Assembly: GCA_021785495.1 (NCBI GenBank)
Contig: JAJYFB010000011.1
Location: forward strand, 1-37,272
Source of the DNA: Acidobacteriota bacterium
GTDB taxonomy: Bacteria > Acidobacteriota > Terriglobia > Terriglobales > Acidobacteriaceae
Direction: 5' to 3'
DNA length: 37,272 nucleotides
Position numbers and translations under genes: made by a program. The notes under the pieces were generated by a model that had not been told where the DNA came from, made no database searches, and was given only the letters and a program-made list of their open reading frames with translations. Of this stretch, positions 7,369 to 15,293 are shown piece after piece; position 1 is the first letter of the stretch, and every line of letters begins with the position of its first letter.

Positions 7369-7460
7369 CGACAAACTCTAAAATTAACCGTAAATATCTG
7401 AGCGTAAATCGGGGAAAATAGGGTAATCTTGCGAGATTTTATCGATTTCGATCAAGATAA

Positions 7461-7601
7461 AGCCACTTGCAAAATTCGGGAATCTTCCGATGCCGCCGTC
7501 CCTCCGTGGCGAAAGCCACTCGGAGTTTGTTCGCTTGATTGGCACGACTGAAGTCGTGCCCTTTCAAAACCGCGACTCAGCGATGAATTTTGCAAGGGGC
7601 T
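7461..7601 (+). repeat. Inverted-repeat element, copy 1 (downstream of gatA)
   Basis: The ends are inverted copies: AGCCACTTGCAAAATTC at 7461-7477 and GAATTTTGCAAGGGGCT at 7585-7601 (one mismatch). Inside are two hairpins: GTGGC-GAAA-GCCAC, and GGCACGACT-GA-AGTCGTGCC followed by CTTTCAAA. The same design and orientation occur at 9883-10034, but the first hairpin has a different stem sequence with pairing kept. It carries no gene and looks like a small non-autonomous mobile or REP-like element. Confidence 0.8.
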
Positions 7602-7655
7602 GGCATGGTCAGGACACCAAGACAAGAGTAGGCCGGGCTCCCAGAAAAACAGCGA

Positions 7656-9119
7656 TCAACCCGCCGCTTCGACGGCTCGCGCGACGCGGAAGGCCGTGCT
7701 TTCGCCGAGGTGCGGCGCGAGGATCTGCATACCGACGGGTAAACCGGCCCGGGTTGCGCCGCAGGGAACGCTGACGCCGCAGATGCCAGCCAGCGAAGCG
7801 GTAACCGTGTAAATGTCGGCCAGGTACATGGCCAGCGGATCGCCGGTTTTTTCGCCGATTTTGAAGGCGGGAAAGGGCGAAGTGGGCGTCACGATGGCGT
7901 CCACCTGGGCAAAGGCGCGGAGGAACTCCTCGGCCAGGATGCGGCGGACCTGCTGAGCCTTGCGGTAATAGGCGTCGTAGTAGCCGGCCGACAGCGCGTA
8001 GGTTCCGAGCAGAATGCGGCGCTTGACCTCGGCGCCGAAACCCTCGTCGCGCGAGTGTGCGTACATGCCGGCGAGCGAGGTTGACTGCGGCGAGCGGTAG
8101 CCATAGCGCACACCGTCGAAGCGGGCGAGGTTGGCGCTGGCTTCGGCCGTGGCAATCAGATAGTACGCAGGAACCGCGTATTTTGTGTGCGGCAGCGCGA
8201 TGGGATGAATGGAGCAGCCGGCGGCTTCAAGCGCGGCGATGCCCTTTTCGATGGCGGCGCGCACTTCGGCATCGAGCCCCTCGGCAAAGTACTCGGCCGG
8301 AACGCCGATGCGCAGGCCGGCGGCGGGTTTGTCGCTCGCGGCGGCGTAGTCCTCGACGGGCGCGGCGGAACAGGTGGCGTCCATCGGATCATGGCCAGCG
8401 ATCGCGCCGAGCAGCGTGGCCGCATCGCGCACATGGGCGGCAAACGGGCCAACCCGGTCGAGCGACGAGGCAAAGGCAATCAGCCCATAGCGCGAGACGC
8501 GGCCCCAGGTGGGCAGCACACCCACCACGCCGCAGAAGCTGGCCGGCTGGCGGATGGAGCCGCCCGTGTCCGAGCCGAGCGTGGCCACGGCCAGATTGGC
8601 GGCCACGGCGGCGGCCGATCCGCCGCTCGAACCGCCCGGCACGCGCTCGGGATCGACCGGGTTGCGCACCGGCCCGAAGGCGGAGTTCTCGTTCGACGAG
8701 CCCATGGCGAACTCGTCGCAGTTGAGCTTGCCGAGCAGCACCGCGCCTGCGGCCTCCAGCCGCGCCACCGCCGTGCAATCGTAGGGCGGCTGGTAGCCCT
8801 TGAGAATCTTCGAGCCAGCCGTTGCGGGCGCGCCCTGAACGACGAGCGCGTCCTTGATGCCCATCGGAACGCCGGCCAGTGGAGGCAGGGGATCGCCCTT
8901 GGCGGCCAGCGCGTCGATGCGCGCGGCCTGGGCCAGGGCGCGCTCTTTGGTCAGGCTCAGATAGACATTGAGCCGCGGATTTTTCTCCTCGATGCGCGCA
9001 TAGTAGCTCGCCGCAAGATCCGTGGCTTTGGTGCGTCCCGACGAAATCTCCTCGCGCAGCGCGGCAAGGGTCTTCGGCTTTTCGACAAAAGATGTGGCGG
9101 ATTGCGTCTCGTCTGGCAA
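7656..9119 (-). CDS. gatA: Glutamyl-tRNA(Gln)/aspartyl-tRNA(Asn) amidotransferase subunit A
   Basis: GatA is the glutaminase/amidase subunit of the GatCAB complex. It releases ammonia from glutamine, and GatB uses it to convert misacylated Glu-tRNA(Gln) or Asp-tRNA(Asn). The amidase-signature Ser-Ser-Lys triad is intact. Numbered from the TTG at 9119, Lys89 is in VPMGIKD, Ser164 in PGGSSGGSAA and nucleophile Ser188 in GSDTGGSIRQP. Spacings of 75 and 24 residues match known GatA enzymes. The TTG start gives 487 residues, the usual size, with GAGG eight bases upstream. A GTG at 9194 would add 25 residues but has no ribosome-binding site and falls inside a hairpin repeat, so I prefer 9119. gatC lies upstream on the same strand; gatB is not in the window. 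Confidence 0.95.
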   Translation of the reverse strand: MPDETQSATSFVEKPKTLAALREEISSGRTKATDLAASYYARIEEKNPRLNVYLSLTKERALAQAARIDALAAKGDPLPPLAGVPMGIKDALVVQGAPATAGSKILKGYQPPYDCTAVARLEAAGAVLLGKLNCDEFAMGSSNENSAFGPVRNPVDPERVPGGSSGGSAAAVAANLAVATLGSDTGGSIRQPASFCGVVGVLPTWGRVSRYGLIAFASSLDRVGPFAAHVRDAATLLGAIAGHDPMDATCSAAPVEDYAAASDKPAAGLRIGVPAEYFAEGLDAEVRAAIEKGIAALEAAGCSIHPIALPHTKYAVPAYYLIATAEASANLARFDGVRYGYRSPQSTSLAGMYAHSRDEGFGAEVKRRILLGTYALSAGYYDAYYRKAQQVRRILAEEFLRAFAQVDAIVTPTSPFPAFKIGEKTGDPLAMYLADIYTVTASLAGICGVSVPCGATRAGLPVGMQILAPHLGESTAFRVARAVEAAG

Positions 9120-9180
9120 GTGCGGCCCCTCTTCGAATCCCTGTTTCCCGTCCCGATTGATCCGGCCCCAAAGGATGAGA

Positions 9181-9229
9181 CCTTGCTTTCCCACCCAAAC
9201 CGCAAAAAACGCGGTTTGGATGGGGCACC
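9181..9229. repeat. Hairpin repeat upstream of gatA
   Basis: CCCACCCAAACCGC (9190-9203) pairs with GCGGTTTGGATGGG around an A-rich loop; the only non-Watson-Crick position is a G-T pair. It is preceded by CCTTGC. A similar arrangement occurs at 17800-17836, with the AAA/TTT part of the stem swapped to TTT/AA. Its position between the tandem array and the gatA start suggests an inserted intergenic repeat. Confidence 0.55.
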
Positions 9230-9262
9230 CATCGTCGTACTCCTTGAGGCCGGGTCTCTACG

Positions 9263-9331
9263 TCCCTAGTCCCTTAGTCCCTTAGTCTCTTGGTCCCTTG
9301 GTCCCTTAGTCTCTTAGTCTCTTGGTCCCTA
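9263..9331. repeat. 8-bp tandem array between gatC and gatA
   Basis: About eight near-identical 8-bp units (TCCCTTAG, TCTCTTGG, TCCCTTGG, TCTCTTAG; the first unit is one base short) run head to tail. On the minus strand the units read GGGACTAA or GAGACCAA. The unit length is not a multiple of three, so the array cannot be a coding repeat. It sits in the gatC-gatA spacer, and its last bases form the TAG stop of gatC. Copy number is likely to vary between strains by slippage. Confidence 0.85.
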
Positions 9332-9649
9332 TCGTTCAATCACCTTCGGCACCTTGAAGAACACGCCGTCGGACTCCGGGGCCTGGGCCATCACCACTGC
9401 GCGCGCCAGCGACGGGGCGGGAAGATCGGGGCGCAAAGCGGAGTGCCCGGCGCTGGCTTGCCCGTCCATCCGCTCGCTGGCCTGGGCCAGCGGTTCGATG
9501 CCCGTGGTGTCGAGCTGGTTCAGTTCGGCCACGTACCCGAGAATGGCGTTCAGATCGCGGCGCATCGGCTCGACCTCTTCGGAGGCAAGCTGAAGATGCG
9601 CCAGCGCGGCGACGCGTTCGACATCGGCGACAGTGACTTTTGCGGACAT
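9329..9649 (-). CDS. gatC: Glutamyl-tRNA(Gln)/aspartyl-tRNA(Asn) amidotransferase subunit C
   Basis: 106 residues, the usual size for the small GatC subunit that wraps around GatA and stabilises the GatCAB complex. The start at 9649 has AGGAAGA eight bases upstream; the frame is open further upstream but that part is not protein-like. Family features are visible: VTVADVERVAALAHLQLASEE at the N-terminus, RDLNAILGYVAELNQLDTTG in the middle, and a C-terminal LRPD segment followed by GVFFKVPKVIER. It precedes gatA on the same strand. The stop codon TAG lies in the first unit of the 8-bp tandem array, so expansion or loss of the array could in principle alter the C-terminus. Confidence 0.93.
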   Translation of the reverse strand: MSAKVTVADVERVAALAHLQLASEEVEPMRRDLNAILGYVAELNQLDTTGIEPLAQASERMDGQASAGHSALRPDLPAPSLARAVVMAQAPESDGVFFKVPKVIER

Positions 9650-10032
9650 GCGTATGATCTTCCTTTTCTTCCCCGGACAGCGCATTTGCGGTCCGCCGAT
9701 CGCTTCGGCCCCTTCCGGAAACACGGCTTTCCGCTCATTCGGCAAACGACGGAAAAAACGACGGGGGAGCAACCTGTTTTGCGCTGCCAAACCGGAGAAA
9801 TCTCCGGGGATCGCCTGAAGAACAAGTATAGCGGCTCGCCATGCGAACGAAGAACGCCGAGTCTGCGTGGAGATCTTCAATCGAGCCACTTGCAAAATTC
9901 AGTTGCGGTGTATTCTGCGAGAAGAAAAATCTCCCGCAGGGGCTAAAGCCCCATTCATTCCAGGTATTTTACGCACGACTGAAGTCGCGCCCTTTCAAAT
10001 CCAGCGATCATCGATTGAATTTTGCAAGTGGC
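9650..10032. other. Intergenic region upstream of gatC
   Basis: 383 bp without a believable gene. It contains the gatC leader, a perfect small hairpin (CCGGAGA-AA-TCTCCGG, 9792-9807), a candidate -10 box at 9825-9830 and the inverted-repeat element at 9883-10034. Open frames crossing this stretch are extensions of shadows in neighbouring genes. Confidence 0.6.
9825..9830 (-). promoter_or_regulatory. Candidate -10 box for gatCA
   Basis: The minus strand reads TATACT, one mismatch from the sigma-70 consensus, about 176 bases before the gatC start. The hairpin at 9792-9807 would lie in the early transcript. No good -35 hexamer is seen at 16-18 bases, so this is a suggestion only. Confidence 0.3.
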
Positions 10033-10034
10033 TC
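9883..10034 (+). repeat. Inverted-repeat element, copy 2 (upstream of gatC), with 4-bp target duplication
   Basis: Perfect 19-bp terminal inverted repeats, GAGCCACTTGCAAAATTCA at 9883-9901 and its reverse complement at 10016-10034, flanked on both sides by AATC (9879-9882 and 10035-10038). Inside are the hairpin GGGGC-TAAA-GCCCC and the core GCACGACTGAAGTCGCGCC followed by CTTTCAAA, both also seen in copy 1. The orientation matches copy 1, so the two copies are direct repeats around gatCA. The right end supplies two bases of the stop codon of the giant gene that ends at 10033. Confidence 0.85.
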
Positions 10035-13000
10035 AATCGACGGTCAGCGTCGCGCTGACGGTCTGCGAAAGTCCATTGGCGCTGACGGTGATGGGAATGG
10101 TGTACGTTCCGGTTGGGGTTCCCGAACCGCCGCCCTGGCTGCCGGATCCGCCCGATCCACCCGATCCACCGCCAGAGCTGACGCAACTGGAAACGCCGGT
10201 GGCCAGCACGGCAAAGAGCAACGCCGGCAGCAGGATGCTGCGGCGGCGCTTGAGGGCAAGCGGCAAAAGCAGTACGCCGCAGACCAGCGGAAGCACGGGC
10301 CATCGGCCAGGCCGAACGAGTTTTGCCGTGGCGCTTCCGGTCGAGATCTGGGCTTCGAGGTTGCCCTGGACGCCGGCGCTGATCGTCTCCGTGGTGGGGT
10401 TGAAGAGACAAAGCGCGCCCGTCGGCAATGTGCCGCAGGCAAAGGTGAATGTGCCGCTGGCGCCCGTCGGCGTGACGACGAGCGAATAGGTAGCCGTCTG
10501 CCCCGCCGTGACCATCTGCGCCGCGGCGCCGACAAAGACGACCGTGAAATTGAAACCCGCTCCAGAGAGCGCAACCGTGGCCGGCGGAACGCCGCTGGCG
10601 CTGGCGGTGAGCGTTCCCGATGCCGAGCCCCCGGCCGTGGGCTTGAAGACGATCTCCGCCGTGCAACTGGCCCCGGCGGCCAGCGTTCCGGCGCAGCCGT
10701 TCTGCGCGATGCTGAAGGGCGCCGCGATCGCAAGCGTCACGGCGTCAATCACCGAAGCCGTGGAGTTTGTCAGCGTCACGGTTTGCGCGGCGCTGGTCTG
10801 GCCCAGGGGAACGGCGGAGAAGTTGAGCACCGCGGGAGTCGCGACAAGACCGCCTGTCTGCTGCCCCGACGCGTTGATCGGAACCGCGACCGCCGTCACG
10901 CCAGCCGTGGAGGAGGAGATCGTGAGTGTTGCCGCGCTGGCTCCGCTTGCGCTGGGCGTGAAGACGATCTGCGCCGTGCAACTGGCTCCGGCGGCCAGTG
11001 TCGTTCCGCAGGTGGTGGTGTACGCATAGCTGGAAGCTGCGGCGCCGCTAAAGGTAAAGCCGAGGCCAGCCAGCGCGGCTCCCCCGGTGTTCGTCACGGT
11101 CAGCGTCTGCGGACTGCTGGACACGCCGGGCTGATTGTTGGTGAAGGTCAGGCTGGTGGGCGAAACGCCAAGGACCGGCGGCGCGATGCCTGCGCCGCTC
11201 AAGGCCACGGTCTGGGTTTTGAGCGCATCGGCAACGGTGAGCGTCCCGGTGAGCGGTCCGGCCTGGGTGGGATCAAAGGTCACCGCGATATAGCAGATGC
11301 CGCCGTTGGCCGCGACCTGCGAGCCGCACTGGTTGGTTTGCTGAAATGGCCCGGTGATCGAGAGGACAAGGTTGGTCAGCGCGACGCCGCCGATGTTCGT
11401 GATGGTGACTGTTTCGGGTGAGGAAACCTGATTTTCGACCGTGTTCGGGAAGCTGAGCGCCGTGGGATTGAGCACGTCGGTGGGCGAAGCCAGCGAGGTT
11501 CCCGTCAGTTGGACGGTCTGCGTCCCGGCCGCGTCGGTGAGCGTAAGCAGGCCGGTGAAGGTTCCGGCCGAGGTGGGCGCAAACTCGATCTGTATCGCGC
11601 AATCGGAACTGGCCGCTAGGCTGGTTGCGCCACAGGAGTTGCCCCCGGCGGGAATCACGAAGGGCGTGGAGACCGTCAGGCCGGAGATGGAAACGGCGGC
11701 GCCGCTGTTCTGCACCGAGATCGATTCGACCGGAGAAACCGTGTTTTCTTCGATCTGCCCGAAGGGGATGGAGGCGGGAGAAATTGTCACCTGACTGGAG
11801 CTGGCGACGCCTGTGCCGTTGAGGTCGACACTCAGTTGGCCGCCGTAAACGTTGGCGTAGATGGTCATCAGGCCGGTGAGCGCGCCGGCCGTCTGCGGCG
11901 TGAAGACAACCCCGACCGTGCAGCTTGCGCCCGACGCAATGGACTGGCCCGTGCAGGTATCGGCGGAGGCCGCGGAAGAGGTCGCAAAATCGCCGGTATA
12001 CATAATCGATGTGGGCGTGAGAGCGACGCTGCCCGTATTCGTAATCGTTACCGTCTGCGCATTGCTCGTGGTGTTCAGATTCTGGTTGGTGAAGGTGAGC
12101 GAAGCGGGAGCCGCCGATGCCGCCGCAAGGGCCGTGCCGGCCGTCCAGAGCGTCGTCTGCCAGATGCCGCGCCCATAGGTTGCCGCAACCAGAACCGGAT
12201 CGGAAGAATGGGCCGCCGCAGCGCTCAGCGCAACCACCGGCGCCGGCGGAAGTCCCGCGCCGAAGGGCGCCCAGCAATTCGAGCCGAAGACGCCGCAACT
12301 GGTCACCTCCGAGGTGTAAAAGACGCCGACGTCGGTGGCCAGATAGACGGTTTGACCGCTTTGCGGATCGATGGCCAGAGCGCTGACCGGCGCGTCGGGC
12401 AGGTTCGAATCGATCGCAGTCCACTGGGCGCCGCCGCTGGTGGAACGATAGACGGTCTGAATGTCCTCGCCATAGTTCTGCATCCCCTCGACGGTCGCGT
12501 AAACCGTGTTGCCGGTTGGGTCGTGCGCATCGATCGTCAGGCTGGAGATGTCGAACTCGTAGTAGTTGAACGGATTGGCGTCGTTCGTGACCGGATTGGC
12601 CGTCAGATCGGTCCAGGTCCAGGCCGCCGGGCTTGTGCTGGAGGCCGGCTGATAGAGCCCGCTCAGAATATGGCCGGAAGCATTGGCGCCGAAGGTGGCT
12701 GCGCCGTAGAGCCCCACGTAGACCACCTCGCTGCCATTGCCCAGATTCATGGCCACCAACGAGCGCACCAGCGCATTGCCATCGCAGGGGGTGCTTGGAG
12801 GATACGAGGCGGCCGGGGGCGCGGTATCGGCCACAGCGAGGACCGGCGAAATGGCCGTCCAGTCCGACCCGCCCGGGGTTCCCTGCCAGATGCGGCAGGT
12901 GGCGACAAGCAACTTTGTCATGTCCAGCGCATCGACCTGAAACGTGGCCGGAACGGGCATCGTCAGGCCGTCGCTGTCCACATCCGCTTCGCCGACCACT

Positions 13001-15066
13001 GGGACCGCCGCAGAACCCGATCCGGTGCAGGGCGCCAAAGGCGAACACAGGTAGATGGCAACCCCGGCTTGATCGTTGATGTACCAACTGCTGTTGTCCG
13101 CCGGGTTGAGGACGGCCGCGCCCGCATCGCCGGTAATGAGCTGGGGCCAATCGGCGGTGGAAGCGAATGTGGAAGAGGTCTCCTCGATGCCGGCGGCTCC
13201 ATTGACGCCGGCGCTGGCCAGAATGGTGTACGGATTCGTGGCAGCGGGCGCAACGCTTTCGACCTCGGCCAGCGAGCCAATGGAGCCGTTCAGATTCTGA
13301 AAGTGGCCGGCGTCGGTCGACGAGCAGACCGGACCGGTCTCGGCGATACCGTCGGTCGAGCGCCAGAGGCCGCTGTCGTTGCCGAGGAAGATCTCCAGCG
13401 GATTCGACGCATTCCAGGCCAGCGCGTGCTGATACTCGCCCACCTGGGCGCTCATGCAGGTGGTCGAATTGGTCGTGTTGCGCCAGCTTCCCCCCAGCGC
13501 ATACGGCAGCTCCGCCTCCCACAGATCGTCGGCTCCGGCCAGCAGCAGCGTTCCACTGGAGGCCGTGGCCGAAGGCGCCGCGGCCAGCGCCAGCGTGTAC
13601 GCGCCGTCGACGACCGTCGCCGCTCCCTGTGCGGTGCTGAGGTCCATCCCCTGGGCTGCGGCCGTGGTGTTCCACTGCGTGCCGAAGGCGATGGTTCCGC
13701 TGGCGCAAGCGCCGCTTGCCGGTGCGCAAACATCCTGCCAGAGGCCCTGGTCCTGGTTGTTGATATCGACGGTCCAGGCAAAGGTGTCGCCGTTTGCGGC
13801 ATTGGCGGCCAGAGCGCCGCGAAAGACCGGGCAGCCGGTGTCGCCGGCCACGCCGGGATTGGTAGGGCATAGCACCGAATTGATCCCGGGCTGATTGGTC
13901 AGCCGCGTCCAGGTGATGCCGTCAGCCGATTCGTAATAACCGTGAAAACGGATGGCGGCGAGGAAGACGTTCCGCAGGGGATTCCAGACCACCGAGGTCG
14001 CGGCATTGCCGTTGGGGCCAAGCAAAGGCGATGCCGCCGATTGCACCAGATTGTTGGCGCCCGTGCCGTCCTCGATCGTAGCCAACTGCCAGGTGGCCCC
14101 GCTGTCGGTCGAGTAATAGAGGCCTTCGCAAATTTTCACCGTGGGGGTCGAGGCCGAAGTCAGCGATGCGCCGACGATGTCGCCCTCGTACGAATCACTC
14201 ACCGCCGCGACCACAACCTGGGGATTCACCGTGCTCCAGGCAAAGCCGGCAAAGGCGGCGCCGGCAAAGGAAAAGCCCGCGCCGCCCGTGCCCGTCTGCA
14301 AGCCCGAAGACTTCGGAATCAAGCTCCAGGTGGCGCCGCCGTCGGTCGAACGCAGAATGCCGGCTCCATAGTAAGAATCGAGCGCATCGTTCGGATCGCC
14401 GGTGCCCGCCAGCACGACGCCTGTCCCACCCGGCTGCACGGTCAGCGCGCCGATGCTGATCGAGGCGTCCTTGGCGCTGGCCAGGGCCGTCACCTGATCC
14501 GTGAGCGGAGTAAAAACAATGCTTGAAACCGCCGCGGCCGCAGCGTTATTCGACGTCCAGACGCCGCCCCCCGTCGTGCCAACATAAATACGGTTGCCGG
14601 TGGAATCGGAGGGATCGGCCGCAATCGAGGTGATCCGGCCCGTCACCGGACCCAAGGCGAGGGTGGAAATTGCCGGTGGACCAAGCGGCGTCCAGGTCGC
14701 CGTCGAGGACGAGCCGGAGGTGCTTTGCGCGGAAATCGCATGAGAACGAAACGCCGTGGCCGGCTGGCGCAGGATCAATCCACGCGGGGAGGCACGGTGG
14801 CCAGCGGTCACTCCGCGTTCTTGCAGAAACCGTCGAGCCGCCTGCGCCAGTGGCGGCAAGGGCCGGACCGATGGCGCGGAAGAGGCGCGGGAGAAAGGAG
14901 ACAAAAGAGATTGTTGCGCGCCGGCTGCTGTGGCCAACGACGCAGCCAGAACGACGGCCAACCGCCAACAGATCCGCGCGACACGCCCCATGGGCCGGAC
15001 CGGCCGGAGGCTGGAGCCGCCTGCCCATCCGGCGGAGACAACACGCTGAACAATCGAATGCAACAT
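10033..15066 (-). CDS. Giant exported protein: Asp-box (BNR/sortilin-like) propeller plus choice-of-anchor-D repeats
   Basis: 1,677 residues from the ATG at 15066; ATG 14991 is an alternative closer to the signal peptide core (RLAVVLAASLATAAGAQ). Roughly the first 1,000 residues carry several Asp-box motifs (RSTDGGATW, YSTDSGATW, RSTSGGAQW), which mark beta-propeller blades of sialidase/sortilin type. About five Ig-like choice-of-anchor-D (HYDIN/ASPM-type) domains follow, each with NPxxLSFP/PxSLTFTN, VTITNTGxxAL and LAAGASCT-type elements. Near the C-terminus are two hydrophobic segments separated by KRRRS, a Ser/Gly linker and a short beta-rich tail. It is probably exported and surface-associated, perhaps in binding or adhesion; no enzyme activity can be assigned. 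The stop codon forms at the edge of the repeat element at 9883-10034, so the original C-terminus may have been slightly longer. Confidence 0.88.
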   Translation of the reverse strand: MLHSIVQRVVSAGWAGGSSLRPVRPMGRVARICWRLAVVLAASLATAAGAQQSLLSPFSRASSAPSVRPLPPLAQAARRFLQERGVTAGHRASPRGLILRQPATAFRSHAISAQSTSGSSSTATWTPLGPPAISTLALGPVTGRITSIAADPSDSTGNRIYVGTTGGGVWTSNNAAAAAVSSIVFTPLTDQVTALASAKDASISIGALTVQPGGTGVVLAGTGDPNDALDSYYGAGILRSTDGGATWSLIPKSSGLQTGTGGAGFSFAGAAFAGFAWSTVNPQVVVAAVSDSYEGDIVGASLTSASTPTVKICEGLYYSTDSGATWQLATIEDGTGANNLVQSAASPLLGPNGNAATSVVWNPLRNVFLAAIRFHGYYESADGITWTRLTNQPGINSVLCPTNPGVAGDTGCPVFRGALAANAANGDTFAWTVDINNQDQGLWQDVCAPASGACASGTIAFGTQWNTTAAAQGMDLSTAQGAATVVDGAYTLALAAAPSATASSGTLLLAGADDLWEAELPYALGGSWRNTTNSTTCMSAQVGEYQHALAWNASNPLEIFLGNDSGLWRSTDGIAETGPVCSSTDAGHFQNLNGSIGSLAEVESVAPAATNPYTILASAGVNGAAGIEETSSTFASTADWPQLITGDAGAAVLNPADNSSWYINDQAGVAIYLCSPLAPCTGSGSAAVPVVGEADVDSDGLTMPVPATFQVDALDMTKLLVATCRIWQGTPGGSDWTAISPVLAVADTAPPAASYPPSTPCDGNALVRSLVAMNLGNGSEVVYVGLYGAATFGANASGHILSGLYQPASSTSPAAWTWTDLTANPVTNDANPFNYYEFDISSLTIDAHDPTGNTVYATVEGMQNYGEDIQTVYRSTSGGAQWTAIDSNLPDAPVSALAIDPQSGQTVYLATDVGVFYTSEVTSCGVFGSNCWAPFGAGLPPAPVVALSAAAAHSSDPVLVAATYGRGIWQTTLWTAGTALAAASAAPASLTFTNQNLNTTSNAQTVTITNTGSVALTPTSIMYTGDFATSSAASADTCTGQSIASGASCTVGVVFTPQTAGALTGLMTIYANVYGGQLSVDLNGTGVASSSQVTISPASIPFGQIEENTVSPVESISVQNSGAAVSISGLTVSTPFVIPAGGNSCGATSLAASSDCAIQIEFAPTSAGTFTGLLTLTDAAGTQTVQLTGTSLASPTDVLNPTALSFPNTVENQVSSPETVTITNIGGVALTNLVLSITGPFQQTNQCGSQVAANGGICYIAVTFDPTQAGPLTGTLTVADALKTQTVALSGAGIAPPVLGVSPTSLTFTNNQPGVSSSPQTLTVTNTGGAALAGLGFTFSGAAASSYAYTTTCGTTLAAGASCTAQIVFTPSASGASAATLTISSSTAGVTAVAVPINASGQQTGGLVATPAVLNFSAVPLGQTSAAQTVTLTNSTASVIDAVTLAIAAPFSIAQNGCAGTLAAGASCTAEIVFKPTAGGSASGTLTASASGVPPATVALSGAGFNFTVVFVGAAAQMVTAGQTATYSLVVTPTGASGTFTFACGTLPTGALCLFNPTTETISAGVQGNLEAQISTGSATAKLVRPGRWPVLPLVCGVLLLPLALKRRRSILLPALLFAVLATGVSSCVSSGGGSGGSGGSGSQGGGSGTPTGTYTIPITVSANGLSQTVSATLTVD

Positions 15067-15293
15067 CGGCTTCGTTCCCCGCAACCGGATGGGGAGTTCG
15101 GCTTGCCCTTGGGTGAAAATCTTCCAATGGAGATGAGCCCGAATCCGCCGGCTTGCGATCAACGAAACACGCAGCTTCCGGGATTGAAACCGTAGCCATT
15201 ATAGGCCAGCACGGGAAAAAAGAACCAGCAGAATTGCAGACGGCCGACGGCCGGTCCAGCGGCCGGCCCTGTTCCGCTTTGCGCGCCACAAAG

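Follow-up and report, generated by a model that had tools for sequence, protein, structure and literature searches.

Inverted-repeat elements with an internal hairpin doublet beside gatCA in an Acidobacteriota genome

Two copies of one element at the gatCA locus

We analyzed a 37,272-nucleotide stretch of an Acidobacteriota genome from the family Acidobacteriaceae (assembly GCA_021785495.1, contig JAJYFB010000011.1, positions 1 to 37,272, forward strand), called the window below, in which a short inverted-repeat element lies on either side of the genes gatC and gatA. The gene identities given by a first-pass annotation made from the letters of the window were confirmed by Pfam: gatA (7656..9194, reverse strand) matches PF01425, and gatC (9329..9649, reverse strand, start codon taken from the sequence) matches PF02686; both genes lie outside the elements and serve as context only. 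The two same-orientation repeats of 141 and 152 bp that it had reported are real, lie where it had placed them and belong to one family, as judged from the sequence and from a catalogue of copies in the genome. Copy 1 occupies 7460..7602 on the forward strand (143 bp counting the outer bases) just past gatA, 53 bp from its stop codon, and copy 2 occupies 9883..10034 on the forward strand (152 bp) just before gatC, about 230 bp from its start.

The terminal inverted repeats, annotated as about 19 bp long, were measured as 18-bp ends with the sequence GAGCCACTTGCAAAATTC. Both ends of copy 2 are perfect (9883..9900, forward, and 10017..10034, reverse), and the copy is flanked by a 4-bp target duplication, AATC, on the left (9879..9882) and on the right (10035..10038). 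The ends of copy 1 are decayed, with three mismatches in total, one in the left repeat (7460..7477, forward) and two in the right (7585..7602, reverse), and this copy has no target duplication. Hairpin 1 is GTGGC-GAAA-GCCAC in copy 1 (7506..7519) and GGGGC-TAAA-GCCCC in copy 2 (9939..9952), with exactly the stems that had been described. Hairpin 2 has an 8-bp stem and a TGAA loop in copy 1 (7541..7560). Both copies do contain the two predicted hairpins; however, the second stem of copy 2 (9973..9990) is damaged, with one base missing and one substituted. All four hairpins were placed on the forward strand from the sequence, with support from the fold for the first three and from the alignment for the last. 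Hairpin 2 and the CCCTTTCAAA tail were found in copy 1 and copy 2 alike. The folding z-score was −5.9 for copy 2 as DNA and −5.3 for copy 1 as RNA, and the terminal repeats contribute to both values. No Rfam family matched the window at the gathering score.

The bracketing of two genes by two same-orientation copies invites the reading that the elements serve gatCA specifically, as a device for regulation or recombination that deletes or tunes the operon, for example, and the first-pass annotation had warned that recombination between them would delete both genes. This hazard was not supported. The copies come from different subfamilies, one intact and one decayed; 106 of the 159 columns of their alignment match, and their longest exact shared run is 17 bp. 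In addition, 53 further complete copies lie elsewhere in the genome. The borders of gatCA were also compared between relatives, as had been proposed, by a gatA search that covered 40 genomes of the genus, matched 38 and provided 30 loci for reading. gatC adjoins gatA in 30/30 of these loci; elements occur at gatCA in the window's locus only, and both copies are missing in all 29 relatives read. Because the relatives lack both copies, two separate insertion events are the best reading of the bracketing, which looks like a coincidence. A gatCA-specific role was dropped in view of these relatives and of the low identity between the copies; a dedicated device is extremely improbable, and, judging from the sequence, we see no reason to expect that the copies beside gatCA have a role in the operon.

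Copy 2 is inserted exactly at the stop codon of an open reading frame (ORF) of 1,709 residues with ASH/Cep192-type domains (10033..15162, reverse strand; domain search), such that the GA of its TGA is the element end (10033-10038). The predicted empty site of copy 2 would leave the length of the 1,709-residue protein unchanged. Among the relatives, a hairpin-1-like site past gatA in L320 and L324 (1 and 4 mismatches) and a single end-like site with 4 mismatches in L312 are not elements. The stretch between gatC and gatA at 9260-9335 contains short runs of CCCTTAGT/CTTGGTCC in near-tandem arrangement.

Copy number, target duplications and a matching insertion sequence

The genome-wide search for the end and the core that the first-pass annotation had suggested revealed at least 55 complete copies, so the repeats are not limited to the pair at gatCA. 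In the 2.9-Mb assembly, the end occurs at 143 sites with up to two mismatches (76 forward and 67 reverse), compared with none for the reversed control. The complete copies, 141-154 bp long with 18-bp ends, were catalogued within limits of 125-160 bp, a total of at most 8 end mismatches and at most 9 core mismatches, and copies cut by contig ends are not among the 55. An exact 4-bp duplication lies directly outside the ends in 40 of the 55 copies, a 5-bp duplication in three and a 7-bp duplication in one, whereas after shuffling of the right flanks 4-bp duplications averaged 0.9 and never exceeded 5. Because of this excess of exact 4-bp target duplications, we assign the family to the DDE-type miniature inverted-repeat transposable elements (MITEs). 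The elements have terminal inverted repeats and are too short to encode a transposase, they duplicate their target site, and they have their ends in common with an autonomous insertion sequence (IS).

Some copies have a more complex structure. In five of them (L201 348-501, L021 312-462, L035 148-299, L065 1501-1652 and L257 307-458), the left half belongs to one subfamily and the right half to another; L201 and L021, as would be expected after a crossover between copies, have no target duplication, and the other three have one. On contig C166 of the same genome, an element copy lies next to an oppositely oriented second core with one recognizable outer end, which together span about 290 bp (L020 377-666). 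The element seems to interrupt the assembly: of its 218 contigs, at least 12 start or stop within an element copy or at its edge (C6, C26, C78, C86, C92, C96, C97, C114, C119, C148, C149 and C157).

The end is found at up to one mismatch in 17 of 348 genomes of the family. In two of these relatives, G249 and G334, perfect end pairs 1,453 bp apart, identical to the 18-bp ends of copy 2, flank an ORF of 383 aa with the transposase domains DDE_Tnp_1 and DUF772; the search for a transposase with matching ends that the first-pass annotation had called for was thus answered by an IS in related genomes. Its target duplication is GGAT in one of the two relatives and AAGAT in the other. The nearest NCBIfam families of the transposase are IS1182 (NF033551) and IS5 (NF033581), it is present at E ≤ 1e-30 in 5 of 80 genomes of the genus, and no relative of it was found in the PDB at E 0.01. 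When the end variants were compared with transposase identity, a protein identity of 100% went with identical ends, 82% with 1 mismatch, a 78% remnant with 0, a 77% fragment with 2, 74% with 1-2, 53% with 4 and 50% with 2-3. Overall, the 4-bp duplications, the many copies and the IS in relatives that has these ends support the earlier suggestion of a mobilized structured element rather than random hairpins.

Other candidate sources were considered and rejected. DDE_Tnp_1 was matched by three genes of the genome itself, and the element's end was absent from each of their loci at up to 5 mismatches; of two that were classified, one is an ISAs1 member (above the cut-off) and the other is nearest to IS5 (below it). 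A 1,131-bp end pair at L227 was not kept as a separate IS type, as the frame within it is a shortened member of the same transposase family. This shortened IS relative (L227 1501-2631, genome G303), with a 74% transposase fragment, appears to have inserted into a copy of the element, within its left end.

These results also bear on the reading that the family is a pure REPIN or bacterial interspersed mosaic element (BIME), composed of repetitive extragenic palindromic (REP) sequences and spread by a REP-associated tyrosine transposase (RAYT) alone, with the 18-bp ends acting as an outer hairpin. RAYT genes and hairpin doublets are indeed present, as described below. However, 40 of the 55 copies have 4-bp target duplications, and there is an IS that combines identical ends with a DDE transposase. 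Members of IS200/IS605 known so far reportedly make no larger duplications (PMC2817692). We consider this reading highly improbable.

The hairpin doublet as a separate module

Between the ends lies a filling of about 105-118 bp that consists of a hairpin, about 20 nt and a second hairpin. An exact pattern of hairpin 2 and part of the tail matched at least 107 stretches, which among the matches listed are all in Acidobacteria records and come mostly from a few metagenome-assembled genomes. When 97 Acidobacteria loci were aligned on the core, TCCCTCAGGGGCTAAAGCCC, about 20 variable bases and GGCACGACTGAAGTCGTGCCCTTTCAAAAC were kept, and outside them nearly nothing was. The borders are sharp: only a few bases from TCCCTCAG...CCTTTCAAAAC, information that was at about 1 bit or higher has dropped nearly to 0. 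Since the hairpins were the search pattern, the borders are a result of this alignment and the hairpins are not. Hairpin 2 was present in 25/25 genomes of the genus that were searched and in 0/16 others, and 20 of the 25 had no match to the 18-bp end, which occurs in 7 of the same 41 genomes, in several of them as just one site with 2 mismatches. The paired hairpins are repeated in the genome, as in REP sequences and REPINs. The conserved feet of the hairpins are TCCCTCAG and CCCTTTCAAAAC, and the GTAG tetranucleotide at the hairpin foot was not found in the conserved core, so we do not file the family as a GTAG REP. The earlier label, REP/MITE-like, is correct but undersells the structure, which is a MITE on the outside and a RAYT-type doublet on the inside.

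In Acidobacteriaceae, at least six different groups of terminal repeats enclose the same core. The flanks of 108 of 110 core sites were scored for inverted repeats, and a score of at least 11 was reached by 36 sites compared with 7.5 expected from mismatched pairs, and a score of at least 15 by 16 sites compared with 1.3, a null that is raised by the pairing of loci of one end group. The groups have ends of the types GAGCCACTTGCAAAATTC (first); TAGAGCGTGTTTCATAAATGGC, TAGAACTGGTTGCATAAAT and kin (second); GTAGTGGGTCAGTTTGA and GTAGCGTCTCAGTTTGA (third); AGGAACCTCTGAATAAGTC (fourth); AGCAGCCTGTGGCGTAAGTC and CAGCCTGTGGTGAAAG (fifth); and ACAGGCTGCGGAAAAACTC (sixth). Each is represented by at least two loci when every end is allowed up to 4 mismatches, and two further groups by one locus each; the end strings were taken from the inverted-repeat test, which makes this a check that is not independent. 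Short pairs of the window's end contain the core in 91 cases and lack it in 7, with overlapping loci counted repeatedly. The same genome also holds elements of the fifth group, with CAGCCTGTGGTGAAAG-like ends and the same core, at five loci (L242, L243, L246, L247 and L248), one of which has a 4-bp duplication. Because the same core occurs in at least six groups, several kinds of MITE appear to harbor RAYT-type doublets. Long pairs of other end groups at L160 and L183 were rejected as chance, with poor ends and no recognized transposase-like frame. At L108 and L113, elements of another end group are flanked by GGGATTAGGG-like runs.

The first-pass annotation had taken the difference between the GTGGC and GGGGC stems as a compensatory change that implies selection on structure. 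The change is there, but the inference is weaker, in that it reflects one split between subfamilies. In the structure alignment, which used 47 of 48 distinct copies (the copy holding an N was left out), 95.7% of cells pair, and pair 60-71 is GC in 35 copies and UA or UG in 10. Changes on both sides were found in 5 pairs, compared with a shuffled mean of 2.2 (10 of 500 shuffles were as high), and a slide of +3 gives 6. The covariation score exceeded all 500 shuffles and all slid versions; the shuffles leave relatedness in, and most of the signal comes from the one pair that separates the subfamilies. In the genome's own copies, the pairing of hairpin 2 is within the range of shuffles (105 cells; shuffled mean 103.8, maximum 108). 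At the flanks of RAYT genes, 15 distinct hairpin 2 sequences vary between GC and CG, AT and TA, and CG, TA and GC, and 113 of 120 cells pair, more than in any of 500 shuffles (at most 112); the pairing of hairpin 1 at these flanks equals the highest shuffled value (47).

The genome has two Y1 transposase genes, one of them above the RAYT cut-off, and on either side of this RAYT stand hairpin 1 and a related form of hairpin 2, in the same order. A RAYT match was found in 53 of 60 genomes of the family. Such hairpins lie within 350 bp of the RAYT at 14 of 31 loci (the genome's own and 13 of 30 others), similar in order and in hairpin 1, with a hairpin 2 and tail that are not identical. Hairpin hits at RAYT loci number 44 in 21.7 kb near the gene compared with 15 in 71.3 kb farther out, distances that assume full 1.5-kb flanks, which is untrue for loci cut by contig ends. 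At several loci (L285, L296, L297 and L302), the doublets on the two sides of the RAYT are mirror images; in most cases CCTCAG precedes hairpin 1, and CCCTT or CTCTT follows hairpin 2. At L205 1402-3077 (contig C115 of the same genome), a 319-aa frame with a RAYT domain (residues 170-303) overlaps a same-strand frame of 366 aa, which resembles a glycine-cleavage P-protein subunit; the RAYT start there needs care.

Another reading is that the family consists of ordinary MITEs, the hairpins of which are retained as transcription terminators or RNA stabilizers or are derived from the interior of an IS, and that the likeness to RAYT doublets is convergent. The evidence of transposition works without a RAYT, and the divergent hairpin 2 at the genome's own RAYT and the RAYT loci that have no such hairpin, both detailed below, fit this reading. 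It does not account well for a bounded core common to several different terminal-repeat groups, for the presence of this core in all 25 genus genomes searched, 20 of them lacking the end, or for the RAYT flanks in several genomes that keep the order of hairpin, about 20 nt and hairpin. Furthermore, the complete 1,453-bp IS (L225, L230) has no match to hairpin 1 or hairpin 2 inside, and promoter and terminator scans placed no site inside an element, the six terminator-like sites of the region all lying outside. We regard ordinary MITEs with convergent hairpins as unlikely.

A probable chimera and its closest known systems

The combined results suggest that the family is probably a MITE with DDE-type ends, spread in trans and filled by a RAYT-type REP doublet. 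In this model, an IS1182/IS5-like DDE transposase that survives in related genomes would act in trans on the 18-bp ends. A RAYT, which is a Y1 enzyme, would have made or moved the doublet, and DDE transposition would then have amplified the whole chimera; the other end groups would likewise be DDE elements. As for the order of capture, the RAYT may have placed the doublet between existing ends, or transposon ends may have captured an existing doublet.

Several observations weigh against this chimera. With respect to the DDE-type ends, a duplication of at least 4 bp is missing in 11 of the 55 copies, the decayed copy 1 of the window among them. The transposase scores below the NCBIfam cut-offs (110.6 against 270 bits for IS1182 and 76.5 against 140 bits for IS5), and the assembly itself has no matching transposase (best match 41% over 93 aa; none at 1e-30). 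Recent mobilization in this genome is therefore presumed at most, and, given that contigs break at the elements, assembly may have lost a multi-copy IS. The divergence of protein and ends runs parallel only roughly, and the 78% remnant in G338, which contains stops, keeps a perfect end. With respect to the doublet, the copies beside the genome's own RAYT have an identical hairpin 1 (in 3 of 4 copies), a hairpin 2 with 3-4 mismatches and no CCTTTCAAAAC tail, and 17 of the 31 RAYT loci, with contig-cut loci counted in, have no such hairpin nearby. With respect to the end groups, 72 of the 108 core sites have no clear terminal repeat, and no matching IS was found for groups other than that of GAGCCACTTGCAAAATTC. 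Because the genome's own RAYT doublets differ in hairpin 2 and tail, the RAYT cognate to the exact core may be a different one, and because the co-divergence of protein and ends is rough and an IS is matched to one end group only, our confidence in the chimera is slightly lowered.

A broader proposition is that REP doublets are a general filling that has repeatedly turned different insertion sequences into MITEs in Acidobacteriaceae, such that two unrelated transposition systems recognize the elements, one for their birth and one for their spread. We put this forward tentatively, as a possibility that we rather doubt. The birth of bacterial MITEs and the spread of REP doublets are both poorly understood. 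A core common to MITE-like elements with different ends links the two processes, and REP sequences would gain a route of dispersal without a transposase of their own. Among the titles and abstract openings of the best literature matches, no description was found of REP doublets inside DDE MITEs, nor were the letters of the core found in any paper text, in a search that covered few subscription papers or preprints. MITEs, RAYT doublets and acidobacterial TIRYT loci are already known; the chimera and its recurrence across end groups were not found in this search.

The family resembles, and differs from, four known systems. Like the Tn3-derived miniature elements (TIMEs; PMC4133298), it is small, non-autonomous and forms mosaics; unlike it, TIMEs have Tn3-derived ends, and the title and abstract opening of that paper mention no REP filling. 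The transposase shares DDE_Tnp_1 and DUF772 with IS1182 and IS5, its best NCBIfam matches, but falls far under the curated cut-offs for these families. According to the available excerpts of the sources, the definition of REP sequences includes the GTAG tetranucleotide at the hairpin foot (PMC3733652), and the Acidobacteria TIRYT group (PMC3733652) and class 3 (PMC6006769) comprise RAYT or TIRYT loci with REP doublets or REPINs. The family is like these in its two hairpins about 20 nt apart, its many copies and the similar doublet beside RAYT genes, the TIRYT repeats being compared by description and not by letters, and it is unlike them in that its conserved core has no GTAG foot and its doublet lies inside transposon ends with DDE-type duplications. 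Bacterial MITEs, as described in the excerpt of PMC3733652, are 70-300 bp long, have terminal inverted repeats of 15-30 bp and have no coding capacity. The family departs from them in that its filling is a bounded module common to elements with other ends and is not matched in the IS, and it agrees with them in size, in its 18-bp ends, in its target duplication and in the matching IS in relatives.

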